Source: Xestospongia muta
Lineage: Eukaryota; Porifera; Demospongiae; Haplosclerida; Petrosiidae
Assembly (NCBI GenBank): GCA_963693285.1
Contig: OY848918.1
Span: 1,037,001-1,101,000 of the forward strand
Reading direction: 5' to 3'
Length of the DNA: 64,000 bases
The translations under genes and the position numbers were made by a program. The notes below the pieces were generated by a model. That model ran no database searches. It was given only the letters and a program-made list of their open reading frames with translations, and had not been told where the DNA came from. Below are positions 1-60,141 of the stretch, in pieces (position 1 is the stretch's first letter; each line of letters opens with the position of its first letter).

Positions 1-1430
1 CTTAGGACTTAAGATGTGTGATGGAATAGATAGTGAAGCTAAAATATAGAATCATCAGAACATTATAAAAACTACTAATTTCTTATAATATTAGGATCAG
101 CTTCTTTAGGATTTAGGACATCTAAGGGTATCCAGTATAACACAGATATAATAACATGAATTATGGCATTCTTTATCTTACAACATTTCAATGAATATAA
201 TCATTGTCTTTATAGTGTTTAGGCTGTCTACCGCATGAGAAGGAGATATAGTGACATATCTATAGATTTTGTAATATATGGTAAAAAAGAAAACATACAG
301 GCAGCATCAAGAACAATGACATTACTTATAATACAAGTGTGGATTATCAAAATTTGAATTTGGTTAAAACTGTAACTTAGTTCAGTAGACTCTTTATGAT
401 TTTCTCTTGTTGTGTAGTGCCCTGTGTGAAAATATAAATTACCACTTTATTTCAAACACTTTTTAGTTTCTAACTTTTTTTACTTTGTACCACTAGACAG
501 TAAATAACAGCAACAATAATAACACAAACAACAAAGCAATCACTTAAGTACATATGAATGTTAATATCAATGAATGGGTTTGTTCATTTTTCTGATGTAC
601 TTGTAACAGTTAGTTGTGACAGGGATTCTACTTAGAAATGAAAGTACAATGTAATGACTCATTTTGATAAATAAATGTGTTTTCTTAATACACAACAATA
701 ATAGTAACAACTACTGAAACTATGATAATAAATTTCATATTGTTGTTTGATTTTGGGTTGATATCTGCAAATATAGTAATCTATTGATTCATATATAATT
801 TACCCGCTATTGAAGGATGAACTGAATGAGAAGGATAAAGAGATACTGTACTGGAAGATGATATCATTGTCCTACAATGTGTACTAATCACATTAACTGT
901 AGTCTGTGAGATTATGTGGTTATAATCAATGGATGTGTCATTATAGAAGATAAATATAGTAATAGTATATTCTTCTTAAGGTAGTTAATTGGTAAATATA
1001 TTGAAGTAGAGTTTATCCACAGTTATTAATAACCCTATAACAGTGCAACATATTTGATGTCTTAAAACATATTTATACCTTGTACTTTAAGGATTACTTC
1101 ATTTGATAAAACAGGTTGTGGTGTATGTACTATAGCAATTATCTCAGCATTGTTATATTTTGATAATGAAGTAATGACAAGATCAGATCTGATACTACCA
1201 TTTGTAAATGTAGTCTGATATACTGATATATTAACAGACTGATAACCAGATATGTACACCAAATTATCCACAGTCGAAAACACTTGTCTACTACAGATAA
1301 TCATTGTAAAGTTGACAACAAGTCCTTTACTGGTATTTAAAGAGGTTGGTTGTAGTAATAATGGGCAGCCATGAACAACAGAGACAGACAAGCTATTTCA
1401 TGACTAATACTAACCTATTATCAAAAAGAC
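1..1430 (-). pseudogene. Chimeric receptor pseudogene: family-B tail joined to R3-type Ig exon
   Basis: Read on the minus strand, 1390-1440 holds a start exon (MELTVFLII) and 1062-1391 an Ig-like D1 exon closely matching that of R3 (shared QPTSLNTS, GYQSVNISVYQTT). The next exon starts like the R3 FN3 exon (GLL.TVDKLYF) but after about 12 codons meets a stop near 1000. Sequence then switches abruptly to the end of a family-B D4 exon (780-960, matching R5), a family-B TM exon (490-780) broken by an insert of about 160 bp (540-697), and degenerate R5-type tail exons at 1-480. The switch inside an exon and the stop show this copy is broken. It is a recombination product of two receptor families and runs off the left edge. 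Confidence 0.75.
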
Positions 1431-1685
1431 TGTTAGCTCCATGTTCCACACTGGCTATTAATCAGTTAACAACATTAGGTGTGTCCATTTAATTATCAAT
1501 GAGCCTCACCTTCTCTATCCTGCAACAGAAGTCCACTCAATACCACCCACTTGAATTTACTTATAGTCTATTCATGACATAAGATATAATGATATGATAC
1601 AATAAACAATAAAATAGTAGAATAATAAATGTTCGATAAAAGCTGATTATAGTACATATTTAAAATAGCAGGATCAATAATATCA

Positions 1686-4390
1686 TCACAATACACTTTC
1701 TTTATCAGTTACTTGTGAAGTTGATGGTTCTAAGGCTTCAATTGATACTTGTGGTAGTATCTGATAAAACAAAAATACTGGACTAGTAGGACTGCCAGGA
1801 ATAGTAGGTGTTAATGGAAAAGGAGATACTGGAGGAGATGACTGTGTATTAAATAGAGGAAGTGATAGAGTTTTTAAAAGTGGTTTAGAACGAGGTATGA
1901 TCTGATAATCTTGTGGTAAATCTCCCAGCAAACATTTATGACTGTCATCAACTGAATCTTCCTTGTTATTATTTTGATCATCCTCCTCATTAATAATCTG
2001 TATAGATAGATATCTACATATTATATTATATTAATATGTATTATATTATTATCATTATTGTTATATTATTATGTATTATATTATCATATTATTGTAAGTT
2101 AACTTACAATATTGTTAGCCTGAGTATCTTCAGTAATAGTTATGTTATTAGCAGGCTCTAGTGAAGCAGGTACTAATACAACAGTAGATGACATTGGTTG
2201 CTGTACTAACTGAACTCCAGGAGACATTTCAGAAATATTACCACTAATACTATATTATTAACAATAATCACATAATAGTCACATACTTTGTCTCAGAGTA
2301 TTCATCACTACTAGTACATATATCGTACTGAGATGACTTTTGGAAACACCCTATATATATATGATAGGAACACACTTTAGTATCATAACGATAATATTGT
2401 TAGTATCATACCTTGATGAGTGCAATAGAGGATGAGAACTATTAGTATTGCAATAATAATTGATACAATAATAAATAACATAATGGCAGTAGCAATAGCA
2501 AATAACTTCCAATCTATATTTGAAAATATATTTTACATTATTGACATACTATATATTTACTGTTAAATAGAGAGAATGGATTAGTCCATACAGTGGAAGA
2601 CTGCGTTGGAAAATCTAGCAAACAATATAGTCAATATATAATAGATATGATTTCATATATTTACCAGTAGATGAAGGAAGTAAACTTAAAGTGGGAGATG
2701 GAGATGGTGTAGGAAATAACTCTAATAATAATAATATCAATAATACACACATTATAATAACTGATCACACCTTTTGATGTAGGAGGAGCTGGTGGTAGTA
2801 TCAATACTCCAACAACAGCTGGTACTATAGAGATCAGAGTATGATTTTGGAGACCAAATGCCCTCCAGTGAGAATTGTTCATAACATGTTTAATAGGAAA
2901 ACACTTTATAATCTTCAGTATATGTCTTTGTCTTGAGATATTCAGTTGTAGAGTTATTCCATTATTACTACTGAGTATATGAATAACACAACCAGTAGCA
3001 TTTGAGCCATAGGTAAAATGACAGGTCACACATAATTTACCAAAGTAATTTATTATGTCTATAACCACATTTTGTAGATCAAAAGAGCCTAAATGATGAT
3101 ATTGTTTATTATAAAATAGTGCTGACTCAGTTAATAAAACAGTTAATAAAAAGTCCTAGGGAAAATCCCATATGAATATTGAGGACATACAAATATACAG
3201 TTTGGACTTACTGAGTATTTTTGATGATGTTATAGTAACACATCCATCAATGTTACAATATGAAACATTGGCAATAAAATGGATATCCTTTGGTATTAAT
3301 ATCATATCATATCTCAAGTCTATAGACTGTGGTAGTGATAGTACTGGAATGATGTAGACTTTATTAGAATTTATATCAGTCAAGTTGATAAATGCATTAT
3401 CTGGATAACACCCAGGACAAAGGGGATGATCCTATTATAGAAGTAATAATTATTAATGTTACATTTTATATACTAGAATACCTGTGTATCAAGTAGTTCT
3501 GATATAAGAGATAGACATGCTTCTCTCTTTACACAAATCCAAGTACTTAGTTCTGACCATGATATTTGTGTCACTACAAAACATGTGTTATGTCAAATTA
3601 TGAACGTTACCACTTACCATTTGGTATAACTATAATACAACTTGATGATTTCCCAACTCCTCCATTATTAAATGAGGTCACATTAACGATATATTCTCTG
3701 AACAGATCAATATTGATAGAGTTATTAATAATGATATTGTATGATGTCCCATTAGTTATAATAGGATGTATTAGATCCACAAATTCAATATTATAATGAG
3801 TTAAAGTTCCATCCAAAGTTATGGGAGCAATAAAAGTAACATGCATTATGTTCTTCTTCACAAAATGACAAGTCAGGTTACTCACATGATCTGGAGGTCC
3901 TACACACATCATTTATAATTACCATATAATGTAATACTACTTACCTTGTACTCCTAATATAGCTTTGTCAGAGTGAGCTGGGAAACTCTCTTCTAAAGCT
4001 AAAAATTGTATTTCCATGCCATCATAATACAATGGAATATCAGTCAGTGTGAATACTGCTTTTATATAACTGCTATTGATGTCAGATTGTGGAGGATAGT
4101 ACTGATAAGGTTTTATTAGAGACACACTACTACAGTTAGCAGTGATCACAGTGAAAGCCACATTAGAATGTTCTGTAGTATTCACTGATAAAGGTTGTAC
4201 TACAAATCCTAAACAATACACAAATAACTGTTACATATGTAAATTATGGCGACAAACTTACTACAGTGAGGTGATGGCTCCACAAAGAAGTCATGTGTAT
4301 AGCGTATTAGCACTATATTGGGAGCACCAGTCACAATAGATAGTCCTTTAAAAAGTAGACAAAACAAAACTGTAGCGACTATACGTAGTA
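1686..4390 (-). CDS. R2: Ig/FN3 single-pass receptor with Ser/Pro-rich cytoplasmic tail
   Basis: Minus-strand exons, joined by eye with GT..AG introns: signal exon 4262 to about 4390 (hydrophobic IVATVLFCLLFKGLS; no clear ATG, so the start is uncertain), D1 3945-4208 (VQPLSVNTTEHSN), FN3-like D2 3618-3899 (GPPDHVSNLTCHF), linker 3482-3573, D3 3212-3431 (PLCPGCYPDN), D4 2771-3088 (CVTCHFTYGSNATGC), stalk 2665-2721 and 2561-2614, TM 2412-2513 (IATAMLFIIVSIIIAILIVL), tail 2286-2350, 2108-2249 and 1686-1997. The tail ends KESVL-stop and is rich in Ser/Thr/Pro, with tyrosines in SQYDIC, DEYSET and QDYQII. D1-D4 carry many N-glycosylation sites. Likely a surface recognition receptor; ligand unknown. 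The reading frame stays open across all joins. Confidence 0.72.
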
Positions 4391-4593
4391 TCTCTATTTT
4401 ACTCTTTCAATAACTATCACAGAGTACAATATCCGAGATTTATAAACAACTTATAATAATATTCATAGCTGTCTATGAATAATAATTAATTCTTACAACA
4501 CAAGTTAATTTAGTATACCAGTTTTAAATATTCTTACGACATGTAGTATCATTAACAGGATAATTGATATCCTATATTTTGACAATACACATA

Positions 4594-7035
4594 TTAATTA
4601 TTAGTTATAATATTTTCATAGTCAGCAGTACATGTCCTACTAGGTTGTACTGTTATATATGATGGATTACTCTTTAACTCCACTCTTCTACTTCTTATTT
4701 CAAGTCTATGTACTGTAATATAATCATATCATATATGGACAATGATATATAGTACATACCTTCCTCATATGCAGGATTATCAGTAATAGCTCTTTGATCA
4801 ACTATAATATAATTATATGTATGTAGTTCATTATTGTTCATACTCTTACCTCCAACCTCATATTGTTGAGTTAGTTTTTTTCTCATATACACAATGATAC
4901 TAGTAACAATCACTATTATAGCAATAATAATCATTACTACAATGATTGTACTAATTAAAGGAATAGTACCATTGGTAGCTGTGTATTGTAAGTAAATAAT
5001 AATTTATATGACACAATAGTACTTACATGATATTATAATAGTAGTTGATACAGATGTCATTATTATACTAGTAGTACTAGTACTAGTAATGAACTCCTGT
5101 ATTGTTGATATGGACACAGTATCTATATACAAAATAAACTATAAGGTCAACTAATAACAACCAAATATTACTCGTATATTGTTAACCTTTAATACAATGT
5201 ACTAACTTCCTAACCTGTCTCAATAGTAATACTGTTAACAATAGATCAGGAGATACTGATAGCACATGATAATCATTATTTATTATACACACATTAATTC
5301 ACAATATATTATATAATATATACTACACACAATACTAAGTACTACATATTGTTAATCAATGTATATAAGTTAATGATAACATAACAGATGTGTTGTTCAC
5401 TAACTTGTGTCAACTGTCAGAGTAGTACTACTATCAACATGAGGAGGAGGTATAACATCATCAACAACAATGATGTTTGCTGTCTCCCTAAACTCTTTAG
5501 ATACTGTATAATCTCTCTCCCAGTCATGTATTGTGATATTATACTCATCAACAGGTAGTGATAGACAGTATGTAGTGTCATCATCATCATAAGGTACATT
5601 AACTTCATATATATCTAGAGTTTTATAAGACATAGCTTTGATATTAAATCCCTTAGCATCTGTGACAGTAACATATGTTACATTAACACACACACTACCA
5701 GCTACTGTATAGATAATAGCATCTTTAATATCAAAGGTCCCTATCAGATAATTATATGATAATTAGTAATTATAAGAGGAAAACTTACAGAATCCAAACT
5801 CTTGTGACTCAGCTTTATCTCCTGTTAATGTATTAACAATGAGTTGACCCATACAGTGTGAATTATTAGGAAGATTATCAACTAAATAGATACCAATAAT
5901 AGTATCATTTCCGATGTATGTTACTATAGTTTTGTTAAATGGTTCACTTTTGTAGTGCTTGTAGACAGTGCTATGACTCATGTATTTAATTCTAGCTGAA
6001 ATATTAATAGGTGTTTGCTCTTGACAGCTATAAGAAACCTATTGATTGATTAACATCATTATTATATTAAACACTACAAAAATCTATATTAAAACAATTA
6101 TACAAATGAACTATGACTTTTGGGAATGCTCATATAACTGTACTTCTACATCCAAACCTTATATGAAATGTTAGAGCTAACATTTTCAACACTTATCACA
6201 GCAATATCTTCTTTTATAACTCTTGGTACTATTACAAGAAAGATGAAAAAAGATATTTATAAATATCTCTACTGTTAAGTTAGTACTCTAGAGAATACAT
6301 CTTACCTCCAATATGATAATATTGTTGTGATGTTCCCTCTCCCTTTCCTACAATATTAACTGGTACTACTATTAGCTCATATCTCTGACATGATATAAAG
6401 TTGATATGACTCAATGATATATTAGTAGTTGTTGAGTTAGTAGTATAATTGACTACATTTAATTTAGTGTCTATAACAGACACAACATAATGTAGTATAT
6501 CTACTCCATCAAGTGTTATAGGTGGTAACCAACTTAACAATTTGGTGGATGAATCGAAGTAGAGTTTATCCACAGCTGTTAATAACCCTGTATCATAAAG
6601 AGTAATTGTTTTATGCTAAAATAATATTGTTACCTTGAATTTTGAGAAATACTTTGTTTGAAGAAGTTGGTTGTGGATTATATACTGTAGCTCTAATCCC
6701 AACATTGTTATATTTTGGTAATGAAGTAATGACAAGATCAGATCTGATGCTACCATTTGTAAGTGTAGTTTGATAAACTGATATATTAACAGACTGATAG
6801 CCAGGTATGTATGGATTATCATCAACAACCCAATACACTGATCCACTACAGACAATTGTTGTAAAGTTGACAATAGACCCTTCACTGGTGTTTAAAGAGG
6901 TTGGTTGTAGTAGAAAGGGACAGCATAACATAGACAACATAGACAGTAGAGACTATATAAAGAACATAGAGATATTATTCATGACTAATACTAACCAATT
7001 ATAATTATTATGAAGACTGCAAACGCCATCTTCAT
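4594..7035 (-). CDS. R3: Ig/FN3 receptor with ITAM-like, NPxY-bearing tail
   Basis: Exons on the minus strand: signal 6996-7035 (MKMAFAVFIIIIIG), D1 6634 to about 6951 (LLQPTSLNTSEGS), FN3 6306-6587 (GLLTAVDKLYFDS; LSWLPPITLDG), linker 6158-6228, D3 5789-6017, D4 5405-5740 (WTFDIKDAIIYTVAGSVC), Ser/Thr stalk 5027-5122, TM plus juxtamembrane 4760-4978 (IISTIIVVMIIIAIIV-type helix, then RKK), last exon 4594-4712. Joins keep frame except exon 1 to exon 2, whose phases do not agree, so the true start is unsettled. The tail has NPAYEE, NPSYITV and DYENII; the last two give YxxV-x9-YxxI, the spacing of an ITAM, and NPSYITV also fits an NPxY PTB site. An activating receptor is plausible (inference). 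Confidence 0.72.
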
Positions 7036-7252
7036 GTGGGGCTTTCCCTCAATCATATTATGTATAATTTCAACATTACAATAACAATACTATAACAGAT
7101 AGATTATAATATTATCACAAATGTGTTGGGTAGTTGAACAGAGTCCAATAAAATCTGCCAATAAACTAAATCAATAATTACATATAATATATATGAACTT
7201 ATTCCAAGAGAATTAATTAATACATGAATGTAATTACAAAACATTAATTCTG

Positions 7253-10235
7253 TCATGTATCACTGTCTAAATCTTCCTCATGTTTTGAAGTTCCAACTAC
7301 AAAGACAGGTGATGTCTCATTCTCAACGTCGGTTGGTAGAACATCAGGCATATCAAATTCCTCCTGTTGAGAGGGCTAATGTGAAGAATAAATACTGAAC
7401 AAAATAAAGACATCATCTTGTACCTCTTCTGAAGGAATTGTAGATGGTTTATTAAGAAGCTCTTTTGTTTCCTCTTCTGCTCCTTTGATAGACCTTTGTG
7501 AAAGACGTCGCTGACCCATTGATATCATTTCCTTTACACTTGATGATATTGATTCCAAATTTTGTAATCTACAAATATAAACAGTATTAATAAACATTTG
7601 AGTATAATATCTCAATTTGTACTTTTCAGATATTGTTGATCCACGTCTTTGCTGTTCATGTCTCTCCTACAGTGTATATCTTAAAGTGTCAATATAATTT
7701 GTATATTACAACTTAACCTCAGTAAGTATAGTTTCTTTACTTCTAGTGTTAAGAGGCCAATTATCCGATTCTCTGTACCATTAATCATATGATTACAATA
7801 CAAATACTTCATATTACTCACTGTTGGTTCTTTTTTTGTGTTATTACTAGTTCCTATAATATGACATTGTGAAATACTAAAGAGTTATTATAGTGTATAA
7901 TTACCGATAAATTTTTATTGACTGGTTCAGATTCTTCAGCTAGTTCTGGCTCATTACTAGTAAGTTGTTCTGATTCAGTTAATTCATCTGGACTTTGAAG
8001 AGGTGAGGGATTTTCAGTCTCTGAAGTGATTTCGTGATTATTAAGAAAGACATCATCATTGGAATGAAGTGAAGCTACTTCATTAGTAATCTATATTACA
8101 GTTACAGAGATGATACGTCAGTGTGACTATAAATGTTATCATACAATTTCAGGACAAACCTGATCCTTACTTTAGGATTGTCAATTACTACTGCTGGACT
8201 AGGAGGTATATCAGTGTATCTAAAGACACAATGTAACATACAATATATAAAGTATATGAAAACTACCTTGGTTCAGTAGGCTCATTAGTTGATTGAAGAG
8301 ATGACATTGAAATCGGTGGCAGGTTTTGACCTAATATCAATTAAATAGTATCATTTTATTTTAATAGTACTCTCACTTCTTTGTTTTTTCTTTCGTACCA
8401 CTAACCAAGTAACAACAAAAACAATAATAACAACAACCAAAATAATAATAACAAAAATAATTATTGGGACCACTATAACAACAATTGATATATTGTTATG
8501 TTTTGAGTTGATACCTGTAATAATCATTAAATTATTTGCGTATTAAAGTTACTTACCAATTATTGAAGGATGAAGAGAGAGATGTGTGGAGAGAGAAATT
8601 AAACTTGTGGTTAATGACATTGTCCTACAGATGGTACCAGTTACAGTCACTGTAGTCTTCTGTGAGATGATATGACTATAATCAATGAAGCTCTTATTAT
8701 AGGATTTAAATGCAACAACAGTATATTCTCCTGGACATAAAGGTAGAATCTCACTAGCAATAGAAGTTGTTATATTCTGAAGAGCAGTTGAAGTAATGCT
8801 ATTAGTGGAGTTAGTAACCATTATTCCACAACCCCATAGAGTAGAGTGTGGAAGAAAATGACATTGATATCTGATACCATTAGTAATAGGAGTTATGTCA
8901 ACTGTTTGTATCTGAGATGTATCTGTATAATTTATAGAGTATTGAGAGAATGACATATGTAAGTTATATAGTAGTAACTTACTAAAATTATCAATTAATG
9001 TTATATTTGATGATAAGTTCAAATTAGACCAGATGAAATGAGCTGAACAGTTAAACTGATCAAGAGGACACACAAGATGTACTCCTTCATTTATTGTAAT
9101 ACTTCCATTATTAGTTACAGTAATATTATAATCACTGTAATTAGAGTAATGTCCACATGTTATATTAACAGATAAATGAGTAGGATATGATGGAGTACAA
9201 TCAACATCAATAACCTGTATATAGAGGATAGGATCAATTAATTAGAGTAAAGACCACTAACTTGTGCTCTAAAGATAACAACAGTATTATGTGGATTATC
9301 AGGATCAACTTCAATATGATAATGTGTTAATATTACCTGTGGAACTAAGGACAGTATTAATGATATAGTATATAGTGATATTACCTAATGAAGTATTGAA
9401 ATAGTACATTGTCTCATTTCCAGTACTAGCTCCATTAGTAGCTGATATAGTTACTGTATATATCTCATTAGATATAATGATATCACTTAGTAGATAATAT
9501 ATACTAGTACTAGTAGTGATGTTAGTAATGTTAAGTTCTAATATAGTAATAGTATAATAGAGTATAGGACAACCAGGTAGACTTGAAGGAGGTAACCATG
9601 TCAACAAAACACCTGTACAATTTAATGTACTAGTTATATCCACTGGATCAGGAGAACCTATAGACAACAACAACAAAATAGCATTTTTACTTAATATTAA
9701 TTTCTTATTTTTTATCAAAAACTTATAATTTTATTGTATAATGGGAAAATTTAGTTATTCACTAGTGATATGTATTGTCTATATTAATATGTCATACCAC
9801 TGACCTTGTACTAGTAGTGTAAAGTTATTTGAACAATGAAGTAACGCTGCATCACTGATTGATTTGATAAGAACTTGAACTAGACTGTCATTATAATATA
9901 ATGGGATATTGGTGATAGTTAATGTAACGTTACAAACATTAGTATCGTTATACTGATAGAACTTCTCCTGAGGATCTAGGACATTTTTAGTATTGTAGTG
10001 ATACACATCAACTTTATATTCAAATCTTTTACAATGTTCTAAGCCAGTGACGTTAAAAGTTATTGATAAAGAATGTCCTTCACAAGATGTGACATCTGAC
10101 ACATAACTGAGATTATGTGAGGACTCTGTACAAACTGAAATATTATATTAATTGATAGCTATCATAGTTAACAATACACTTACCACATAAACAAGGAGAT
10201 AAAAGAGAGAATACAATAGCGAGAACATACCACAT
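7253..10235 (-). CDS. R4: family-B Ig/FN3 receptor with long multi-exon tail
   Basis: Exons: signal 10184-10235 (MWYVLAIVFSLLSPCLC), D1 9805-10134 (DVTSCEGHSLSITFNVTG), FN3 9385-9657 (SPDPVDITSTLNCTG; LTWLPPSSLPGC), linker 9262-9344, D3 8983-9214 (VCPLDQFNCSAHFIW), D4 8557-8922 (RYQCHFLPHSTLWGCG; CPGEYTVVAF), TM about 8377-8511 (a long Ile/Val helix then RKKKQR). At least eight small tail exons follow down to the stop at 7253: RYTDIPPSPAVV, an acidic Ser/Glu exon (7900-8090), basic HEQQRRGS, and a helical exon with MGQRRLSQRS (possible basophilic kinase site). The start ATG follows an in-frame stop, and all joins keep frame. This appears to be the most complete family-B copy on the left. The adaptor partners of the tail are unknown. 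Confidence 0.75.
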
Positions 10236-10850: not shown

Positions 10851-10948
10851 TATCATATGTCAATATCTAAATATTCATTATGTCCAGTTACAAATACAGG
10901 TGATTTATTTTCAAACTCATTATATAGAACATTTTCCACCGCAAAGTT

Positions 10949-13900
10949 CTAGTCCTCATGATCAGAGAGCTAATGTTATGATCATAGTAAAAATGACTAA
11001 AAATATAATTTACTTCATCTGGTTGTGTAGATGATCTACTTAGAGGTACTTTAGCTTCATCTTCTGTTCTTTTAGTAGGAGATGTTTGTAAAGAAAGTCG
11101 TCGCTGACGTAGTGACACTATCTTGTTGAGACTTGCCTTTGAGGATTCCACTCTGTCAATATAAACAAGAAGATAATATAGTAAGACAATAACTTGACAT
11201 GTACATTTCAGATATGGTTGATCCACGTCTTTGGAGATCATGTATCTCCTATAATGAATTGACAAAGTGTCAATATAATTATTATATATCTCAACATAAC
11301 CTCATTGAGTTCATTTGTAGCACCTGGTATACCGATAGGAGATAGTCTATCTAGTTTTCTACAATATTGATCATATGATTACAGGTACCATAAAGTCATA
11401 ACAACTCACTGGATTTTATGGAGAGTTTCAAGTTTCTACAAAATAAAGTAAATTACAAAGAAAGAGTTCAGTTCCATTCACTAAATTTCACTTCATTGAC
11501 CATGCTAGATTCTTGAGCAGGTGTTGTCATGTCATCATCACTAGTTGCTTCCTTGTAATTGGAAGGTAAGCTAGTTTTCTTTGTTTTAATTTGACCAATT
11601 TCATCACTGGTAGAGGATGTTACATTGAGAGCTTCTCTTTCTTTTGTAGTAGCTCTAAAGGATAGACACATTATAAGTCTCAAGCTAGTAACAATACAAA
11701 TTATACTTTAGCTTGCTAGGATCTTGGGACTCAAGATTGGATGATTGAACAGGAAGTGAAGTTGTTCTGTTACTTGTTTGATCATTCTATAATATAGAAT
11801 CATCAGAACATTATAAAAACTATTAATATCTTACAATATTACAATCAGTTTCTTTAGGATTTATGTCATCTAAAGGTATCGACTATAACATAGAGATAAT
11901 GATATCAATTATGTTATAATGAAGGAATTCTTTATCTTACATCATTTTGAAGTACATGATAATCCTCTTCATGGTGTTTAGGCCATTGAACTCTTGAAGG
12001 AGATATAGGGACATACCTATAGATATTGTAATATATGTTAAAGAAGTGAAGAAACAGGCAACATCAAAAACAATGACATCATTAGAAATATATGTGATGA
12101 TTATCAAATAAGAATTTGGTTAAAACTACACCTTGGTTCAGTAGATTCTTCACGATTTTCTCTTGTTGTGTAATGTCCTGTGTTAAATTATATGTTACCA
12201 TTTTATTTCTAACACTCATTAGTTTCTAACCTTCTTTTTTACTTTGTACCACTAGATGATAAATAACAACAACAATAATAATAACAACAATAACAGCAAC
12301 AACAATAATAGTAATAACTACTAAAACTATGATAATAAATTTCATATTGTTGCTTGATTTTGGGTTGATATCTGCAAATATGGTAATCATAATTCTATTA
12401 ATTCTATAATTAAAGATATTTACCAGCTACTGAAGGATGAAATGAATGACTAGGGTAAAGAGATACTGTACTTGAAGATGATGTCATTGTCCTACAATGT
12501 GTACTGATCATAATAACTGTCTTTTTTGAGATTATGTGGTGATAATCAATGGATGTCTCATTATTGAAGATAAATATAGTAATGTTGTATTCTCCTGGAC
12601 TTAAATTAGTCACAACTCCAGTAGCAATATGATTTGTTACATTCTGAGGAGCAGATGAAGTCACTTCACTAGTAGAGTTAGTAGCTATTATTCCACAACC
12701 CCATAGTATAGAGTTTGGAAGGAAAAGACATTGATATATGATACCATTAGTAACAGAAGCTATGTTGAAGGACTTTATCTGAGATGTATCTGTATAATAT
12801 CAGAAATTGACATGCATATAGTTGTTATATAGTAGTTACTTACTAAAATTATCAATTAATGTTATATTTGATGATAAGTTCAAATTAGACCAGATGAAAT
12901 GAGCTGAACAGTTAAACTGATCAAAAGGACACACGATATGTTCTCCTTCATTTATTGTAATACTTCCATTATTAGTTACAGTAATATTATAATCACTGTA
13001 ATTGGAGTAATGTCCACATGTTATATTAACAGATAAATGAGTAGGATATGATGGAGTACAATCAACATCAATAACCTGTATATAGAGGATAGGATCAATT
13101 TAATTAGAGTAAAGACCACTAACTTGTGTTCTAAAGATAACAACAGCATTATGTGGATTATCAGGATCAACTTCAATGTGATAATCTGTTAATATTACCT
13201 GTGGAACTAAGGACAGTATTAATGATATAGTATATAGTGATATTACCTAATGAAGTATTGAAATAGTACATTGTCTCATTTCCAGTACTAGCTCCATTAG
13301 TAGCTGATATAGTTACTGTATATATCTCATTAGATATAATGATATCACTTAGTAGATAATATATACTAGTACTAGTAGTGATGTTAGTTATGTTAAGTTC
13401 TAATATAGTAATAGTATAATTGAGTTTAGGACAACCAGGTAGACTTGGAGGAGGTAACCATGTCAACAGAACACCTGTACAATTTAATGCACTAGTTAGA
13501 ATGACTGGATCAGGAGAACCTATATATATAAAATCTGTATTATTATAAAATATTTATTTGTTTATTACTTATCTCATTATATATACTAAAGAATTATAAT
13601 ATATTGTATAGGGAGACAATCTAACAATGAGGCAATTTTGTAAAATCTCCAAATTAAACAAACAAAATTGTCACAACTATAACATAGTAATAAATATTGT
13701 CAAATTAAATGAATCATTGAATTTTAACCAAATATTATTTTAAAACAATCTGCCAAATTTATCCTTGTCAAAGTAACCCAATGTTTTCCTAATTGTTATT
13801 CACTAGTGATATTCTATTCTATCTATTAATGTCATACAACTGACCTTGTACTAATAGTGTAAAGTTATTTGAACAATGAAGTAATGCTGCATCACTAGTT

Positions 13901-14277
13901 GATTTGATAAGAACTTGAACTAAACTGTCATTATAATATAATGGGACATTGGTGATAGTTAATGTAATGTTACAAACATTAGTATCGTTATACTGATAGA
14001 ACTTCTCCTGAGGATCTAGGACATTTTTAGTATTGTAGTGATACACATCAACTTTATATTCAAATCTTTTACAATGTTCTAAGCCAGTGACATTAAAAGT
14101 GATTGATACAGAATGTCCTTCACAAGATGTGACATCTGACACATAACTGAGATTATGTGAGGACTCTGTACAAACTGAAACATATTATATTAATTGATAG
14201 CTATCATACTTAACAATACACTTACCACATAAACAAGGAGATAAAAGAGAGAATACAATAGCGAGAACATACCACAT
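10949..14277 (-). CDS. R5: family-B receptor, close paralog of R4 with divergent tail
   Basis: Exon by exon parallel to R4: signal 14226-14277, D1 13845-14174 (almost identical to R4), FN3 13247-13519, linker 13124-13206, D3 12844-13075, D4 12424-12789, TM 12231-12371 (NMKFIIIVLVVITIIVV-type helix). Tail exons include RYVPISPSRVQWP, DYHVLQND, SIPLDDINPKETD, an exon at 11468-11650 with LNVTSSTSDE, and a helical exon at about 11020-11150 with LRQRRLSLQTS. The last exon hits TAG at 10949-10951; read through, the same frame would continue to TGA at 10853 and recover residues like the R4 end (SPVFVTGH). The tail fragment at 15653 carries the same TAG, so the shorter C-terminus is inherited, not a fresh error. 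Confidence 0.7.
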
Positions 14278-14403: not shown

Positions 14404-14758
14404 ATGGCTGTTACTACAATATACTGTGTTTTCGTTACAGTAATGTGCTGGACATATACAGCAGTTACATTTGCAGGTATTACTAGAGATATATTTTAAT
14501 AAATTGAATTATTTGTATTTTTTAGAATTGGTTGGAAAACCAACATCAGTAAATGCTTATTAAGGATCAATTGCAGTGTTCAATTGTACTGGATACTTTC
14601 ATTGGTTTCATTGGTTGGTGAATAATAGATTGTTAGAACGTGCAGTAGATCATGTTACTAACTTGAAAATACATCGTTTATTGATACCAGCTGAACCAAA
14701 GAACGATGAGGTTAGTATTAAATGTTTGATTTACAATAATATACAGAATGAGTTATAA
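14404..14758 (+). pseudogene. 5' fragment of a family-A receptor
   Basis: Exon 1 (14404-14476, MAVTTIYCVFVTVMCW) and exon 2 (from 14526) match the start of R8 in sequence, exon length and splice phase. Exon 2 has an in-frame TAA at 14561-14563 (where R8 reads NATQGS), lacks the stretch after NNRL, and ends in a stop at 14756-14758. No FN3, TM or tail exons follow. It sits directly upstream of, and divergent from, R5, with only about 125 bp between the two start codons; the intact R8 is likewise preceded on the minus strand by a family-B exon 1 relic. Confidence 0.8.
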
Positions 14759-16955: not shown

Positions 16956-16959
16956 TTAA

Positions 16960-25698: not shown

Positions 25699-25699
25699 C

Positions 25700-42451: not shown

Positions 42452-42884
42452 TAATATAAACAGTAGATCCTGCTACTAACTTGAAGATACATCTTTTACT
42501 GATACCAGCCGAACCAAAGAATGATGGAGTTGACAGTAAATATTTGATTTATAATATTTCACAGAATTCACCATCTGTTATAAGTGATCTTGTATATCTT
42601 CATGTACAAGGTATGTTACTGATTTACAGTAGATATATCAACAATTAACAGTTGATAATTTTTTATTTGGAGGCTTCCATTCACTTAAAATTAAACAATA
42701 TTCCTATCAACATTTTAGGCCTGAGCTATTATCACTGATATCACATACATAGCTATCATAATATGTACATATTTGGTAACTGTTTACTCTCCTATAGGTT
42801 TATTGAGTGAGGTAACTGATGTTCATTTAACTCAAGTCAACAATACTACTGTACAGTTATCATATAGTTCTCCTCCTACTTTAA

Positions 42885-50460: not shown

Positions 50461-51132
50461 TGATGATTCATAGAGTAGTACACACTTACAGTAGACTTCT
50501 AACTACATGGCTACTGAGAATGTGGGTATCAGAGGAACAATTCTTCAAGACTACTGAAATCAATACAATTTTTGACATATCAGAGCTGTGCTATTGTTGA
50601 CTACAATATGTCAGAGATGTATCTGGAGGTACGCAACTTAAAAGCTAAAATTACATTTTATAAAATAGCTAGCTAGAAAGTAGACATGTAAATAAAGAGA
50701 GACTTAACAATTGATGACAAATAGGTGACCACTAATAATATCATCAATTAGTTTATTTAGTTTATTTAAAAAAGTATCTCATACATTTACTATAGTAACA
50801 AAGGATTAAAATGTTGTGATAGATGAATAGATATACCGTATACATTATCTTGACAACTAATGTCTCAATACAATATTCACTTAATCAATTCTTTTATCTT
50901 TTATTTAGTAGACTGCTCATCAAAACCCTTTCAAATACAAGTGTGCTAGTCTACTGCTTTGTATATGTGAGTGTATGACATCTCTACATACATTGGTGCA
51001 ACTTCATTGACAGTACTAATTGGTGTAATGTTTAAAAAGATTATATTATATAACTTTGAAAAATAATGAATGATACATAGGATGGCTATTATAGTTCTAA
51101 TAAAAACAAACAAACAAATGAACAAAGATTAA
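50461..51132. repeat. Duplicated head-to-head spacer, copy 2
   Basis: Near-copy of 41751-42451 with small deletions. No gene seen. Confidence 0.75.
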
Positions 51133-53673
51133 TATAAACAGTAGATCCTGCTACTAACTTGAAGATACATCTTTTACTGATACCAGCTGAACCAAAGAAT
51201 GATGGAGTTGACATTAAATATTTGATTTATAATATTTCACAGAATACACCAGCTGTTATAAGTGATCTTGTATATCTTCATGTACAAGGTATGTTACTGA
51301 TTTACAGTAGATATATCAACAATTAACAGTTGATAGTTTTTAATTTGAAAGTTTATGTTCACTTAAAATTAAACAATATTTCCTATCAACATTCTAGCCC
51401 TGAACTTTTATCACTGACATCACATACATAGCTATCATAACATGTACATATTTGGTAACTGTTTACTCTCCTATAGGTTTATTGAGTGAGATAGCTGATG
51501 TTTATTTAACTCAAGCCAACACTACTACTGTACAGTTATCATATAGTTCTCCTCCTACTTTAAATTTTCATGGATGCTGGCTTATGTGTGAGGGCTATCT
51601 CTGTGGAATGTACATAAGGACAATCCTCCAACCAGACAGATGTTTTTTAAGGAAGTCATTTGTTGAAGGACATGAGCTGTACAATTCCATAGTAATTAGT
51701 TATCAGTCAAATGTATTTGACATATCCCTACCAAATACATCAATAATTTTACATATCCCTACCAAATACATCAATGTATTTGGTAGGGATATGTAAATTA
51801 AACTAAACTAAACTAAATACCATGAATTGGCTAAAACAACCTTAATTGTGAATTATTTACATAATTCTCCAACTACTGTAGCATGCATTTTGCTATCATA
51901 TCTCTTATGTTTGGTAACTATTCACTCTCCTACAATCCTTGTATTAACTATTCACTACAAATATCAGCTTGGAACAATGTAGGTAAAGGAAATGTTACTA
52001 CATTACCACTGATACTATATCAGGGTTAGTGTATGTTATAAGTAGGTAGATGTGGTAATTTAGGGAAATGACCTCTTCTCTTTCTTCTTATCATTTACTA
52101 GTCCCTACAACTCCTCCTCTTAATACTACTCTCAAGTTTATATCTGATAATAACTATATTGATGTGTCTGTAGAGAGTATAGTAAGTATATTAACTAGTA
52201 CATTATATATTACATTACATTAGTACTGTATTTATATTGAACTACTGATCTTAAACCTTTTTTAGATTAGTACTGACTATGTTGGAAGGGTTCCAGATAA
52301 TGTCACAATATTACTGGTTCCAGTGTATACAGTAACATGTCAGTTAGTTATTATTGGTAGTGATTGTAATGAAGTAACTATATCAATACGTAATTAGGAG
52401 AGATGGTTGGTACATGTCAATATATCAGATCATGTGGTACCACAAAGACATTATCAAATATATCTAATGTTTGGTAATAAAGCTGGTATAACACCAATGT
52501 CAACAACAATGATCAGTGAGTGAGAGATTTAATAGATTATTATTATTATTATTTTATTAGATACATTTCAAACACAGAGAGCTAAAATTGAATATAATAA
52601 CAAATATGTATGTATTAACTGTTACTTTGCTGAAGGCTCAACATCATCTGGTTGTCATGGTATCTTTGTTGATATTCATGAAGTATTACATAACCAAACA
52701 TTTACTGTGCCAAGAAGTGACACTCATCCTAATTTTGGATGTAACTGCGAGGTGTTGTTATCAGGTGAATATTGTGTACTGATCTTTGATATAGATAAGG
52801 ATGGTCATATTGAAAATGAAATGGCATCAAAACTGAGTGCTATTGTAAGCCATCAACTAGAAACTATGACAATCAAAACATTATCTTCTATAAATAAGTA
52901 GTTGTAGTATCACTGTGTATGTCAGTAATGTTGTTATTATATTGGTGTTGAGTCATTGTTATTGTTCCCTCAACAGATACTAGTAAATTATCACAGTTAA
53001 TAATACCTGTTGTCACTACAACAATAGAATCTTCTGGTCAATGTAGTAATAATGGTATATCTTCATTACTTATTGTATTATTTGTTACTGGAGGAGTACT
53101 ATTATTAACAAGTATTACTGTTATATCATTTGTGGGTTGTTTAATACGTACTAAGAAAAATAATAAGAGATTAACAATATGTAAGAGCAATAACTTTACC
53201 AAAGTCCATTTGGTTTGGTATCACAAATTGATTGTTAGCTATAAATTTACATTTTGACAACCCTCCATATAAACCACATGTATATCATCTTCTATAATAA
53301 ATCACTTGTGTTTGTAAAGTCAAACCAAATGAAATTCAAATGGATGGATGGACTGCATAAATGGATAAATGGACTGGATGGTTAAGTGAGTGGACAATAT
53401 AACAGACATATTATTAATGGATTAAGTTATTTCATTCTCTATTTTAATAATCCAACTGTTTGGACAGCTCATGAGCGTCAAAGACATGGAGAGTTGTTCC
53501 TAGATAAATTAACAGATGGTACACCACCTCCACTACCTCCTAGGACTCCTCCCACACAACAGCTACCAGATCCAATGTATGACAATATGGAGGAGATCCA
53601 GTTTAGAGCTACTAATAAACAGGCTCTAGTACTTCAAGAGTGTCCAGCTTATACTAAATTACCACTACAATGA
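51133..53673 (+). pseudogene. R11: family-A receptor pseudogene
   Basis: Same truncation as R10 (half D1, to 51288, also with Tyr for the Ig Cys). FN3 is split by an insert (51477-51563 then 51935-52024, middle lost). Linker 52102-52181 and D3 52266-52515 follow, D3 with in-frame TAG at 52395-52397. D4 starts at 52561 and has a changed donor (GT to AT at its end near 52891). TM 52977-53180. The tail exon (from about 53457) has its acceptor AG changed to AA but keeps PPRTPP, DPMYDNM and AYTKL. It cannot make a receptor. Confidence 0.85.
51564..51934. mobile_element. Insert splitting the FN3 exon, copy 2, with palindrome
   Basis: Matches the R10 insert for its first part. It carries a perfect inverted repeat, arms 51751-51771 and 51774-51794 (21 bp, 2-base loop), plus a direct copy of the left arm near 51720, and an AAACT run. 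It replaced the middle of the FN3 exon. Confidence 0.55.
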
Positions 53674-54299: not shown

Positions 54300-55560
<1,261 letters not shown>

Positions 55561-56780
55561 GTAATGTTGGCTTCATCATTAATAAGGAAGGTCACTCTTC
55601 AAACACAATATCACAAGATATAGTAGAGAGTGTGTTCTTATTAACTTGTAATAACAGATCATGTTCAATAATATGAGAAAACTGACACATATTTATTATT
55701 ATATAGACAGCACCACCATGTAGTGCTAAGACCTAAATGTATATACCTCATCATGACTTATATGGTAAGGGTCAGATTCTATTGGAGTGGTTATAGTAGC
55801 AGCTAGCTGTAAAATAACACAAATTATTTGAGGCATGTATATCTTCATAACTAATAATATACTACTGTACTTTAGTAGAAATTTCAAGTGAATATGTTGA
55901 TATTAATAATTCCACATACCTTCATTGAGCATTATTGATTGTTTCTTCCTCATCATCTGTACTATCATAGATATTATTACCAGTAGAACCACATGAACTA
56001 CTACACTATATATCATATGGACATTTCCTGGAACTACTTAAATCAGGTGTGAATGAACTTCAACATCATGTGACTTCAGTTGGTTCTACTGATTTGGTAT
56101 ATGTAGAAGAGAATGTTTTAATAAATTTTTATTATTTGAGATATAAAATATTAGTTAATCAATTTCTATTCCAAATCAATATATTTTAAGACAATGATAT
56201 TTAATAGTAAGTATGTAAGTTAAAAAACTATTCAAGAAACACAGTTAACTGAGAAGTTTATACAATTATAACTATATATCATATTGTGTATGACATGAAT
56301 AATTGATAATTTATGTGTTAAGGTTATAAGTCACATGTGTCTGAATAGCTAAGTTGCAAATTACAAATGTTAATCAGTCTATGGTCCAATTGAAAACGAT
56401 ATTTCATGTTAGACACATTGTTCAGAGTGTAGATTCTCCTAATATGATGTTAACAGATAGATGATAGTATCTACATCATTATACCTCATCATACTCAATT
56501 ATCTTTTCCTTTTGTTTTATTTTACTAAATTTTTGTGGAGAATCACGTTGTAACACTGTTTCTTTTACACTTGCAACTGATGATCTCAATCTGTTTATAT
56601 TAACAGTACAAAAGTATACATGTATAAATATAATTACTTTTCTATAATTCCAAAACAATGTCTTGGTGATTGATCCTACAATGATTAATAAAACGTGGCT
56701 ATATATGGACATTATCAACAAACCTTTTCCTCTTCAGGTAGAAGTCCTTTTCCCTCTTCTTTGTCATTTTTGCTATTCAA
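55561..56780 (-). pseudogene. Scattered receptor tail exons
   Basis: Minus-strand exon-like pieces: about 55752-55809 (LAATITTPIESDPYHIS), 55920-55998 (GSTGNNIYDSTDDEEE, ending NNAQ and a stop), and about 56480-56595 (LRSSVASVKETVLQRD), the last resembling the R4 helical tail exon (SISSSVKEMISMGQRR). They may derive from one broken family-B gene whose ectodomain is R16 or is lost. Order and joins are not certain. Confidence 0.4.
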
Positions 56781-56879
56781 AGAAAACAGATTCCAATTGC
56801 TTACAAGAATTGATAAGTTGCTCTAAATTGTGCTAGTTTGTTCTATAATTAAGTTAGAAGATCAATGGGTTAGTAGCAG

Positions 56880-57740
56880 GCATGGGGCCATGTACATTTG
56901 TAAGGATGTAAGTAAACTACAAGTATTTTCAAAAATTTTTAAGTACAAGTACAAATACAAGCTCCAATAATGAAGATGCACTTAAGTATAAGTACGTATA
57001 CAAATGTTTCAACTGATATAGGTATAATGAATTAGGAAGTGTTTGGTAGTGTTTACTGCTTAGATACTGTTCAACAAATGATATGTCAAACAATATTATA
57101 ATTATGGTCCATTATTGCATCTTATAAACATCAACTGTTTAAATCTATCATCGCTCATTCTACACCTCTCTGGTATGAAAATGTTTCCCTCAATGCTGAA
57201 TAGCCTTTCCACTGGTGAAGACAAAGAAGGTACTCCATGAACATCTTTGCCAAGCTTTTCAAGAGATGGATACTTTCTATAATTCTCTTTCCAATACTTG
57301 CATGGCTGGATTTGTGTCCATAGAGACAGAAGGAGCTGTTAAGTAATCATCAGTGTTTGAATGACTCTGGAATAGAGTGGTTTCGGCCTCTGGCTCAGAC
57401 ATGAAGCTAAATATTGTTTTACTCTTGTTTAAAGGTGGTTCCAAACTACCCTCAATATGAACTTGGGTAGGGTTAACTTTGTCAACTGCAGCCTTTAATA
57501 TTTCTTTTGATCTTAGTATGACAGCCTCATCACTGCACCAGCGAAATTTGAATCGAGGATTTAAAATTGCGGTTAAAACATAGGTTTCTTTATGCTCATA
57601 ATATGCATGCATTTCTCTAAAGATTTTCTTTTAGGCCTTGAATGAAAGCTAAGTTGTATCGTTAAACCAAACCTTGAGAGATGATGAGCCAAACAAACAG
57701 CACATGGCAAAACATATCCTGTCGATGGCACACAATCTAC
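56880..57740 (-). mobile_element. hAT-type transposase remnant
   Basis: The minus ORF 57277-57612 reads YVLTAILNPRFKFRWC and, after a frameshift at about 57280, KYPSLEKLGKDVHGVP, SSPVERLFSIEGN and DDRFKQLMFIRCN, the layout of the hAT C-terminal dimerisation domain. The shift and the missing N-terminal part make it non-coding. Downstream, 56878-57010 has a GGCATGGGGCCA-like end followed by GTACAAGTACAAATAC repeats, a common form of hAT ends. Its other end is lost at the foldbacks. Confidence 0.72.
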
Positions 57741-57747
57741 CTGAACA

Positions 57748-57840
57748 AACTCTAACCAAAATGATAATTACGTATACTATGTATACTATGTATACTTAGT
57801 AGTATACATAGTATACATAGTTATCATTTAAGTTAGAGTT
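57748..57840. repeat. Foldback element 1
   Basis: Arms 57748-57786 and 57802-57840 are inverted copies (39 bp, about four mismatches) with a short GTATAC-rich loop. It lies against the hAT remnant. Confidence 0.85.
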
Positions 57841-57897: not shown

Positions 57898-57957
57898 CAC
57901 AATCAAAATGATAACGAAATATCCATTTATGTTAAATATTAAGTATACAATAATTAC

Positions 57958-60141
57958 CTTTGTTCTTGAGATAGTGTGGATTGATAGGGATCTGATGAAA
58001 TTCAATAAAGAGTTATTCCATAATTTGGTAATTCACAAACTCTTACCTTTTTGTTTCCTTTTTACTAATACTATTACACAGACAGTAACAAAAATTATAC
58101 CACCAAATACAACAATAATTACTAGTGGGACTACTATTGCAATAATTACTGTATTGTCCTTAGATCTAGATGTTGAGATGATACCTGTAATAATTAGTTA
58201 ATAGTTTCATTATTAGATTTAGTTACCAGCTATTGAAGGAGTGATAGAGAGAGTTGGAAACTTTGAATTCAAACTTGAAGATGAGAAAATTGTCCTATAG
58301 TTGGTACCATTCACAGTTATTGTTGTCTGTAAGATAATCTGGTTGTAATCAAAGAATGTCTTATTATAGGAGATAAGTACAATGATGGTATATTCTCCTG
58401 GAGATATGTTAAGTAAATTGTTATTAGCAATATGGGTTGTCATGTTTTGAGGAGCAGAAGAATTGACATTATTAGTAGAGTTAGTAGCTATTATTCCACA
58501 ACCCCATACTATGGAGTGTGGAAGGAAATGACATTGATATCTGATACCATTAGTAATAGGAGTTATGTCAACTGTTTTTATCTGAGATGTATCTATATAA
58601 TATATAGAGTATTGAGAGAATGACATATGTAAGTTATATAATAATAACTTACTAAAATTATCAATTAATGTTATATTTGATGATAAGTTCAAATTAGACC
58701 AGATGAAATGAGCTGAACAGTTAAATTTATCAAGATGACACACAAGATGTACTCCTTCATTTATTGTAATACTTCCATTATTAGTTACAGTAATATTATA
58801 ATCACTGTAATTAGAGTAATCTCCACATGTTATATTAACAGATAAATGAGTAGGATATGATGGAGTACAATCAACATCAATAACCTGTATATAGAGGATA
58901 GGATCAATTTAATTAGAGTAAAGACCACTAACTTGTGCTCTAAATATAACAACACCTTTATGTGGATTATCAGGATCAACTTCAATATGATAATGTGTCA
59001 ATACTATCTGTGGAACTAAGGACAGTATTAATGATATAGCATAATGTGATATTACATTGTAAAAACTGATTGGTTGATTTAACCAAAATATTATTATGCA
59101 AGTTGCCAGTAACAAAAATTGAAAGCAAAAATAATACTGTTTTGATTACTAACATACTATGATATTGTCTGTTTATAGCATCTTCTTTTATATAAGAATA
59201 AAAAATTGAAATATTTGATATATAAATAATTGATTCCACATATGGAAATGACTGTTTATTTATATATCAAATGTTTACAGTACAATAGTTAGATGTTTAC
59301 TTTCAGTTTGTATTAACTATATGCAACTTGCTAAATTACATATTACTTAAATCAACCAATCATTTTACAATAACATATTGTATTATAATGATATTACCTA
59401 ATGAAGTATTGACATAGTACATTGTCTCATTTCCAGTACTAGCTCCATTAGTAGCTGATATAGTTACTGTATATATCTCATTAGATGTAATGATATCACT
59501 TAGTAGATAATATATACTAGTACTAGTAGTGGTGTTAGTAATGTTACGTTCTAATATAGTAATAGTATAACAGAGTATAGGACAACCAGGTAGACTTGGA
59601 GGAGGTAACCATGTCAACAGAACACCTGTACAATTTAATGTATTAGTTATAATGACTGGGTCAGGTGGACCTATAATGAAAACCTTTTAATGTATATATA
59701 TTATCTACTACTGACTGACCTTGCACTTTTATTCTGAAGTAATTTGAATTGTTAATGGCACTTAAAGTTGTTGATAACATTTCAACGTGAAATAAAAATT
59801 TGTTGTATTGTAATTGAACAGTTTTGATAGTTAAATTGATGTTACAAATACTACCATTGTATAAACTGTAAGAATTCTGTGCTGGTTCAAAGTGCTTATT
59901 ACCATTATCATAATACACAATGATGATGTGATAGAAATTATTTTCACATTTTACTAGTCCAGTAACATTGAATGTGAACCATACGGAACGTCCATCACAA
60001 GCAGTAATATTTGACACATAAATGACTTGATCAGAACAAGCTAATAATTATATTAATTGTGAGTTAATCATAGCTAATAGTAGACTTACTACAAACAGAC
60101 CAAAGAGAAAGTAAGAGGACGATGATATACCAACAATGCAT
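57958..60141 (-). CDS. R16: family-B receptor whose tail is cut off by mobile elements
   Basis: Exons: signal 60090-60141 (MHCWYIIVLLLSLWSVC), D1 59720-60040 (NITACDGRSVWFTFNVTG), FN3 59398-59670, linker 58936-59018, D3 58653-58884, D4 58227-58592 (RYQCHFLPHSIVWGCG; SPGEYTIIVL), TM 58047-58184 (NTVIIAIVVPLVIIVVFGGI), then one possible tail exon 57958-57991 (DPYQSTLSQEQR). After that come foldbacks and the hAT remnant, and no stop-bearing tail exon is found, so the gene is probably 3'-truncated. D1 is the most divergent of family B, while FN3 differs from R4 at about 9 of 91 residues. Intron 3 carries a MITE-like insert. Confidence 0.7.
59057..59370. mobile_element. MITE-like insert in R16 intron 3
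   Basis: Inverted termini of about 25 bp: left 59057-59082 and right 59347-59370, sharing TTGTAAAA and GATTGGTTGATTTAA. The matching intron in R4, R5 and R15 is only about 40 bp. A second inverted match (GCAAGTTGC) lies inside. The flanking target duplication is unclear. Confidence 0.75.

Follow-up and report, generated by a model that had tools for sequence, protein, structure and literature searches.

A megabase-scale cluster of mosaic Ig-like/FN3 genes, putative recognition receptors, on chromosome 2 of the sponge Xestospongia muta

The vertebrate leukocyte receptor complex, of the KIR type, encodes paired activating and inhibitory receptors. The sponge aggregation factor, a candidate for cell recognition, is an extracellular proteoglycan complex with Calx-beta type repeats and without a transmembrane (TM) segment, and it is reportedly polymorphic in Microciona. 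In Hydractinia, fusion/rejection genetics are tied to the Alr complex. At least 41 loci of this linked Ig-superfamily gene family have been reported; its members are single-pass, and pseudogenes abound (PMC11067881). Ig-like domains also occur in surface proteins of sponges, i.e., the Ig receptor tyrosine kinase and the adhesion molecule of Geodia cydonium (PMC12018476, PMC11999971), as are large immune-type families of other domain types, the NLR and SRCR expansions (PMC12909245, PMC10855680).

In the window, which is the whole stretch of 64,000 bases of X. muta DNA that was analysed, nine broken pieces were found alongside ten receptor genes that are largely intact, and the gene and remnant spans, set by hand, total 38,324 of the 64,000 bases. 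The original prediction of at least ten largely intact receptors was thus borne out; the broken copies it had announced do exist, but nine were counted instead of a dozen. Eight ectodomains are complete and stop-free from the signal peptide to D4 in splice-consistent models (GT-AG introns with phases 1, 1, 1, 0, 1 and 1), those of A10, A13, A24, A59, C41 and C49 on the minus strand and those of B18 and B31 on the plus strand, so that the single architecture expected on both strands was recovered. Three genes could be read from start to stop including the tail: A10 (7253-10235, minus strand; 15 exons, 14 GT-AG introns, 723 aa), B18 (18120-20674, plus; 8 exons, 7 GT-AG introns, 585 aa) and B31 (31200-33757, plus; 8 exons, 575 aa). 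A13 (10880-14277, minus) and A24 (22960-25701, minus) also carry a TM segment and were modelled through D4, with tail exons visible in both (in A13 to about 10.9 kb), and A59 (58041-60141, minus), likewise modelled through D4, has a TM segment. An apparent foreign insert lies in the A59 tail region. C41 (37990-41611, minus) continues into a TM segment and a long tail built from small exons, and its model of 15 exons (15 GT donors, 14 AG acceptors) reaches 38726, with further tail exons beyond it; C49 (46990-50321, minus) runs from signal peptide to D4 as in C41 and was modelled through D4. E7 and F4, each read by eye from D1 to the tail, bring the total to ten. E7 (4560-7040, minus) has a B-like D1, an FN3 D2, D3, D4, a TM segment and a tail, as judged from its frames and from profile matches (D1B 6635-6916, D2 6316-6552, D4 5466-5738), and F4 (1690-4330, minus) has D1 to D4, a TM segment and a proline-rich tail, with a D4 match at 2928-3083. 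F-type relatives were also seen upstream of the window.

The broken set includes B43 (42420-45840, plus), with half a D1, a partial and then a whole D2, D3b, D4, TM segment and tail, and B52 (51099-53673, plus), truncated at its 5′ end as B43 is, with a split D2 and a D3b match in two pieces; in both the signal exon is missing, D1 is halved and D2 is interrupted. B14 (14404-14800, plus) retains a signal exon and a broken D1, and C36 (36062-36715, minus) retains pieces of D1, D3 and D4 with stops and shifts. The remaining pieces are an A-type D3/D4 remnant at 21.7-22.0 kb (21700-22016, minus), broken A-type D4 pieces with tail-like exons at 55.3-57.0 kb (55312-57000, minus), an A-type D4 fragment at 17.0 kb (16958-17074, plus; profile E 1.6e-10), a weak D4 fragment at 43.9 kb that lies within the B43 span on the opposite strand (43843-43953, minus; E 4.9e-5), and a chimera at 1.44-0.8 kb (700-1440, minus), in which, as read from the frames, an E-type D1 and the start of a D2 run into an A-type D4 and TM segment (D4A profile match 805-972). 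An isolated extra B tail exon was located at 46150-46386. Seeds taken from single copies matched the other copies above chance, with E values down to 7e-71 (A1 seed on A13). A13 and A24 were initially candidates for pseudogenes, but their in-frame stops fall inside a 54-nt intron and this reading was dropped; a single exon for D3b and D4 of A10 was likewise rejected, since a 54-nt intron separates them.

The common plan consists of a signal peptide, an Ig-like D1, an FN3 D2, a two-exon D3, an FN3-like D4, a membrane helix and a tail. The exon plan and the intron phases are common to the A, B and C types, and the G type, found outside the window, reads by eye as the same plan. Hydropathy, from which both the signal-like and the single-TM assignments derive, revealed a hydrophobic N-terminal start in A10, B18, B31 and C41 and one internal hydrophobic segment in each (at aa 458, 477, 473 and 463, respectively). 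D2 is an fn3 domain: PF00041 matched 7 of 10 D2 members when E values up to 1 were admitted, the best being 7.7e-7, with 25.4 bits for A10 D2 and 27.9 bits for the G type against a cut-off of 25, and titin, NCAM2 and contactin-4 are among the relatives of the D2 profile. When the predicted model of D4 was compared with known structures, Foldseek returned no match with E under 0.001, FN3 domains filling its three best rows, and the top VIA rows were glycoside hydrolase sandwich domains, followed by FN3; hence the modelled D4 is FN3-like at the level of the fold only. For D1, Pfam gave Ig_2 in 1 of 9 members (0.0095) and LRR_5 in 2 of 9 (0.0011), and the best PDB profile match had an E value of 0.023; the G-type D1 gave no Pfam Ig match and no PDB match. 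All 50 structural rows listed for a low-confidence model of D1 were antibody, TCR or CRIg entries, and D1 of B18 and of the G type contains a C..W..C pattern, which we take to be the Ig signature. Pattern and model suggest, inconclusively, a V-like Ig tip. Of the Ig/FN3 chimera proposed originally, the FN3 part was thus confirmed in D2, and the Ig part depends on this pattern and low-confidence model.

With the same reserve on D1, the window resembles the Alr complex in that IgSF-like TM genes lie linked in a cluster that also contains pseudogenes. In contrast to Alr, the X. muta family has one putatively V-like domain followed by the FN3 D2, its D4 is FN3-like, the number of D4 places is far higher (see below), and the cluster is known from its genes alone.

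Comparison of the copies indicated that they differ module by module. Among the four A copies dS was 0.03-0.10 in D2/D3, 0.52-1.40 in D1 and 0.18-0.53 in D4, A10-A13 being the exception with a D1 dS of 0.09. The D2-D3 block (8983-9657 in A10, minus strand, two introns included) is near-identical in A10, A13, A24 and A59, and intron 4 is identical across 47 columns, whereas intron 2 differs. In a Sawyer-type test, the number of shuffles (out of 2000) that reached the longest concordant run was 0 for A10-A13, 0 for A10-A59, 47 for A13-A24, 527 for A10-A24, 170 for A13-A59 and 1558 for A24-A59, and for the segment score 0, 0, 0, 2, 166 and 125 in the same order. As this test is blind to a block common to all four copies, a quiet-block test was used, in which 53 of 675 columns were variable and 0 of 2000 column shuffles, which ignore correlation between neighbouring columns, were as quiet. 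D2-D3 was thus recently homogenised in the A copies, with D1 (except A10-A13) and the D4-TM-tail part representing divergent, old lineages, so that the genes are mosaics. In the B copies the median dS was 0.565 for D1 and 0.032 for D2, and the D3b medians take in 6 of 21 pairs with B52. C41 and C49 share 0.93-0.95 DNA identity over D1-D3 and 0.33-0.51 over the TM segment and tail, where the tails are unalignable. These near-identical ectodomains on unlike tails, the module exchange and the broken copies are reminiscent of KIR-type receptors, from which the X. muta family, an invertebrate one, differs by its FN3 stalk. Ordered trios of domains were assigned in 72 G-type genes, one of them the reference, and in all 71 others D4 was nearer the reference than D1 was. 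This comparison took 110 of 128 D1, 110 of 114 D2 and 111 of 150 D4 matches; copies C3 and C10 were set aside, as were matches that were partial or weak. The G-type D2 splits into two classes, with no identity between 50 and 60% among the 110 used; the gap holds for these 110, the four left out being C3 (73%), C10 (51%) and two partial matches (75% and 59%). The C10 gene, at 0.537-0.539 Mb, is a candidate for an ancestral single-copy form.

The window is a slice of a larger cluster that continues past both ends and occupies 0.6-5.5 Mb of chromosome 2. D4 exons concentrate at 1.02-1.88 and 2.58-3.22 Mb and are sparser up to 5.5 Mb. About 209 D4 places were found (187 are at least 230 nt), and two lay off chromosome 2; the total was obtained by merging the matches of several searches and is to be read as an estimate, because it includes fragments and the spans of some A-type copies are approximate. 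Among the matches listed, chromosome 2 accounted for 76 of 76 with whole B18, 83 of 83 with A10 and 22 of 22 with F4, for 63 of 63 with the C41 ectodomain and 129 of 129 with its D4, for 148 of 150, 126 of 128 and 112 of 114 with the G-type D4, D1 and D2, respectively, and for 62 of 63 with the B18 D1; since the genome search scores the best candidates only, these counts are lower bounds. The multi-copy cluster with chimeras that had been anticipated is real, and it exceeds that claim, since it extends over megabases and, as far as the family searches went, lies almost entirely on one chromosome.

The tails are variable. Tyrosine motifs were found in those of B18 (DPMYDNMEE and PAYTKL, together with PPLPPRTPP), B31 and E7 (NPAY, NPSY and YENI), whereas the A10 tail has one tyrosine and the C41 tail has none in a listed motif. 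The canonical ITIM, [ILVS]xYxx[ILV], was absent from all five tails scanned (A10, B18, B31, E7 and the modelled part of C41), which is a further difference from KIR-type receptors. Tyrosine motifs in tails, part of the original proposal, are thus present in B18, B31 and E7. Pfam detected no kinase and no Calx-beta type match in B18 (585 aa) or A10 (an earlier 743-aa version that still held the 54-nt intron). The clustered multigene family thus differs in A10 and B18 from the Geodia receptor tyrosine kinase, and a TM segment is present instead of aggregation-factor repeats. Positive selection on D1 was not seen in the pairs compared, dN/dS being below 1 in 10 of 10 B pairs and in 8 of 8 further paralog pairs. 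A few D2, D3 and D4 pairs exceeded 1 (up to 1.76), D2 rose above 4 in B18 vs B31 and in B18 vs B1127, and D3b pairs that include B52, whose D3b is out of frame, were also above 1, but values above 1 in these few pairs were discounted because of the few synonymous changes. Of the recognition cluster envisaged at the outset, the chimeric Ig-like/FN3 receptor cluster stands; allorecognition or innate recognition is an inference, weakened by the lack of a canonical ITIM in the five tails and of a D1 dN/dS above 1.

We consider it probable that the locus belongs to a complex of recognition receptors, single-pass and diversified in the germline, arranged in tandem blocks on chromosome 2, the recognition role being suggested by the genes themselves. 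In such a complex D1 would be the ligand-binding tip and D2-D4 the stalk, the B and E tails would signal via tyrosine motifs and SH3 sites and those of A and C in some other way, and the repertoire would be renewed by tandem duplication together with either unequal crossing-over or ectopic gene conversion, for the most part via introns. The ligands could be self markers of neighbouring sponge cells, or microbes. Allorecognition is one of these two live options, and we hold it tentatively: a few polymorphic allodeterminants would bind the same allele on a neighbour's cells, and the rest would serve as a conversion reservoir, as in Hydractinia. The linkage, the broken and mosaic copies and the Ig-like tip on a stalk agree with it, as do the remarkable specificity with which sponges discriminate self from nonself and the transplantation immunity of Xestospongia exigua, cited within the same paper (PMC5450542), but the copy number goes far beyond a two-locus need and D1 is without detected positive selection. 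Innate recognition of microbes, pathogens or symbionts, through many germline copies perhaps chosen per cell, is a possibility that we would also stop short of calling probable. A large set of copies in which the tip has diverged and the base is conserved, as in the 71 G-type genes, would suit this role, and the X. muta specimen yielded several symbiont genomes (PMC12398682); however, in the congener X. testudinaria SRCR plus Ig/FN3 combinations had expanded less than in two other sponges, and for the host Ig and FN3 are mentioned with SRCR only in the passages concerned (PMC4772301).

That the receptors form a cell-type adhesion code, sorting or joining cells as they develop or reaggregate and playing no part in immunity or in telling self from non-self, appears rather unlikely: adhesion proteins typically have stacked Ig and FN3 domains, and the D2 relatives mentioned above fit, but broken, chimeric and 5′-truncated copies are unusual in developmental adhesion genes, and the near-identical D1-D3 of C41 and C49 on unalignable tails also speak against it. 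It is very improbable that haplotypic duplicates or misjoined repeats were taken for genes. Although 28 haplotypic duplications were removed in curation and another chromosome 2 region, 16.1-18.9 Mb, has unknown contig order, the complex sits away from that region in an assembly of QV 56.3 (PMC12398682), and identities between copies range from 35 to 98% by module and not along whole copies.

Returning to the recognition-receptor complex, a bolder and somewhat doubtful extension is that it is the histocompatibility complex of X. muta, multi-megabase and haplotype-variable, in which D1 domains would act as self labels and readers while D2-D3 conversion and tail swapping keep producing new receptors. 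The genes of sponge allorecognition are still open; in a study of Amphimedon grafts, aggregation-factor-mediated adhesion genes were reportedly not significantly enriched (PMC5450542). The X. muta cluster offers a mapped candidate interval in the assembly odXesMuta1.1, GCA_963693285.1, with a public alternate haplotype, GCA_963693275.1, and predicts that individuals differ more in D1 and in copy number than elsewhere on chromosome 2. With their variable tips and exchangeable middle parts, its genes are candidates for the means by which sponges distinguish self from non-self, or friend from foe, and they show that an early-branching animal has a system of modular receptor exchange. If the histocompatibility reading is true, this would be the first sponge allorecognition locus, and linked Ig-receptor complexes would date back to an early-branching animal phylum.

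From seed exons of the window and hand-built models, a single exon plan was obtained, namely signal peptide, D1 (putatively Ig-like), D2 (FN3), D3a, D3b, D4 (FN3-like), membrane helix (TM) and tail, with intron phases 1,1,1,0,1,1 along the hand-built models. Families A and C on the minus strand and B on the plus strand have this plan and these phases in common, which confirmed the original prediction of one architecture on both strands; aligned D1, D2 and D4 across the three families retain just 15-37% identity to the first sequence. Two additional types, E7 and F4 (the letter gives the type, the number the approximate kb position), were read by eye. The models yield eight whole ectodomains, signal peptide through D4, and in three of the proteins (A10, B18 and B31, of 723, 585 and 575 residues) the reading frame stays open from the start codon to the stop. 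In the four models analyzed, hydropathy revealed a hydrophobic start and one internal hydrophobic segment each, and the ectodomains carry 12-22 N-glycosylation sequons.

Tails with phosphotyrosine motifs had also been proposed, and this held for some types only. The B18 and B31 tails contain DPMYDNM and AYTKL (B18 also PPLPPRTPP), and the E7 tail NPAY, NPSY and YENI; but the A10 tail has one tyrosine in 238 residues, the modelled C41 tail has four, with none in a listed tyrosine motif, and the ITIM pattern was absent from the five tails scanned (A10, B18, B31, modelled C41 and E7), the remaining tails being read by eye only. The tail region of A59 contains an apparent foreign insert (57250-57780), resembling a hAT transposase end by motif, and one piece of it gave no Pfam match. 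A DNA transposon (60677-62106), in which a THAP-domain gene (Pfam, 6.5e-12) is flanked by inverted arms of 80 nt with 89% complementarity, adjoins the outer side of the last receptor of the window.

We then analyzed the extent of the family in the genome (158,027,690 bases), where the window occupies positions 1,037,001-1,101,000 of chromosome 2 (contig C2); since whole-genome searches scored the best candidates only, match counts are lower bounds. All matches fell on chromosome 2 with B18 (76/76; best 75 of 474 candidates), A10 (83/83; best 62 of 395), the C41 ectodomain (63/63; best 97 of 190), the F4 ectodomain (22/22; best 119 of 140) and C41 D4 alone (129/129, with E up to 0.1; best 150 of 216). 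Chromosome 2 makes up ~14% of the genome, so that even the weak matches there are not due to chance. With the G type, the commonest seen, whose reference gene (locus L078, 1.1517-1.1499 Mb) was read by eye as having the same plan, 150/150 scored D4 candidates matched (148 on chromosome 2; best 150 of 292), as did 128/149 for D1 (126 on chromosome 2) and 114/132 for D2 (112); B18 D1 matched 63/125 (62). After merging, chromosome 2 has about 209 D4 places: 2 below 1.0 Mb, 46 at 1.00-1.26, 66 at 1.26-1.90, 1 at 1.90-2.58, 11 at 2.58-2.80, 52 at 2.80-3.23 and 31 at 3.7-5.5 Mb, with no merged match at 5.5 to 22.2 Mb. A D4 follows 39 of the 52 weak B18-type D1 matches on this chromosome at 0.5-2.5 kb and in the same orientation, versus 4.8 such pairings on average, and at most 12, in 1000 random placements within 1.01-3.225 Mb.

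Elsewhere, a D1-D2-D4 trio was found on contig C3 (10,073,877-10,075,240) and a distant one on C10 (537,253-538,594; G-type identity 49, 51 and 38%), which is possibly an ancestral single gene; among candidates scored, the D1, D2, D4 and receptor searches gave no other relative off chromosome 2. Dense runs of fn3 exons occur on C5 (3.32-3.84 Mb), C7 (0.22-0.70 and 1.75-1.83), C9 (5.63-5.68) and C12 (0.99-1.22) (best 150 of 2606 candidates). They look like separate FN3 families, because neither D4 nor D1 matched on these contigs among the candidates scored.

The four A copies (A10, A13, A24 and A59) are mosaics. The block from D2 to D3b, two introns included, varies in 53/675 columns, the signal peptide and D1 with the first intron in 212/409, and D4 in 140/363; no block as quiet was obtained in 2000 column shuffles. 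Introns 3 and 4 are nearly identical as well (2/40 and 0/47 columns differ) whereas intron 2 is divergent (49 to 325 bases, 0.58-0.62 identity to that of A10), so that the likeness is attributed to recent common descent of the block rather than to constraint on the protein alone. The dS values agree with this reading of D2-D3: 0.03-0.10 in D2 and D3, 0.52-1.40 in D1 (A10-A13, 0.09) and 0.18-0.53 in D4. The median dS of the B copies is 0.565 in D1 (five copies that have a D1, of which two lie within the window and three outside it) and 0.032 in D2 (15 pairs); C41 and C49 are 0.93-0.95 identical in DNA over D1-D3 and 0.76 in D4, and their TM and tails are unalignable (0.33-0.51). One remnant, in which an E-type D1 is joined to an A-type D4, gives the impression of a true chimera. 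The mosaics would most simply be explained by gene conversion or unequal crossing-over, intron 2 and the D3b/D4 region being the putative sites of exchange, with direction and mechanism inferred. B43 (42420-45840) and B52 (51099-53673) are duplicates of one already broken copy: both bear the same 5' truncation, and they are 87% identical across 1.57 kb. The B tail exon also recurs, open, at 46150-46386, some 0.3 kb past the B43 tail and not within a complete gene.

Variation within the G type was assessed in 72 genes to which an ordered D1, D2 and D4 could be assigned, as protein identity to one reference gene rather than from a tree. D4 identity exceeded D1 identity in 71/71 other genes (medians of all used matches, 83 and 61), and D2 fell into two classes: of the 110 places counted on chromosome 2, 64 lie at >=60% and 46 at <=50%, and none in between. 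Two partial matches, at 75% and 59%, did not enter this count, nor did the C10 gene, at 51%. Hence, divergence is greater at the tip than at the base, and there are two kinds of middle module. Identities of D1 and D2 were uncorrelated (Spearman 0.13, p 0.29), and those of D2 and D4 were linked (0.37, p 0.0016). Most G-type genes at 2.86-3.10 Mb have the second D2 class and most of those at 1.14-1.87 Mb the first, with exceptions both ways, so that D2 class is partly a matter of position.

The original prediction likened the cluster to allorecognition or innate receptor complexes. The likeness to the Hydractinia allorecognition complex (Alr) is one of layout; however, D2 is FN3 and there is no genetic link to fusion, and the sponge complex is not classed as an Alr member. 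Tail swapping is shared with vertebrate paired receptors, unlike which the sponge tails scanned lack an ITIM. Among the largely open-access papers on sponge receptors or allorecognition that were surveyed, none was seen to describe a sponge complex of this kind.

D1 dN/dS >1 was not seen between the paralogs compared, and therefore the sequences argue against strong recent diversifying selection between D1 paralogs, a comparison outside which alleles lie. Most likely, D1 would be the ligand-binding tip, D2-D4 would keep it away from the membrane, and some tail types would recruit SH2, PTB or SH3 proteins, while tandem copying and exchange would continually yield new combinations of tip, stalk and tail; the candidate ligands, proposed from one primary haplotype, would be microbes or a self label borne by a neighbour.
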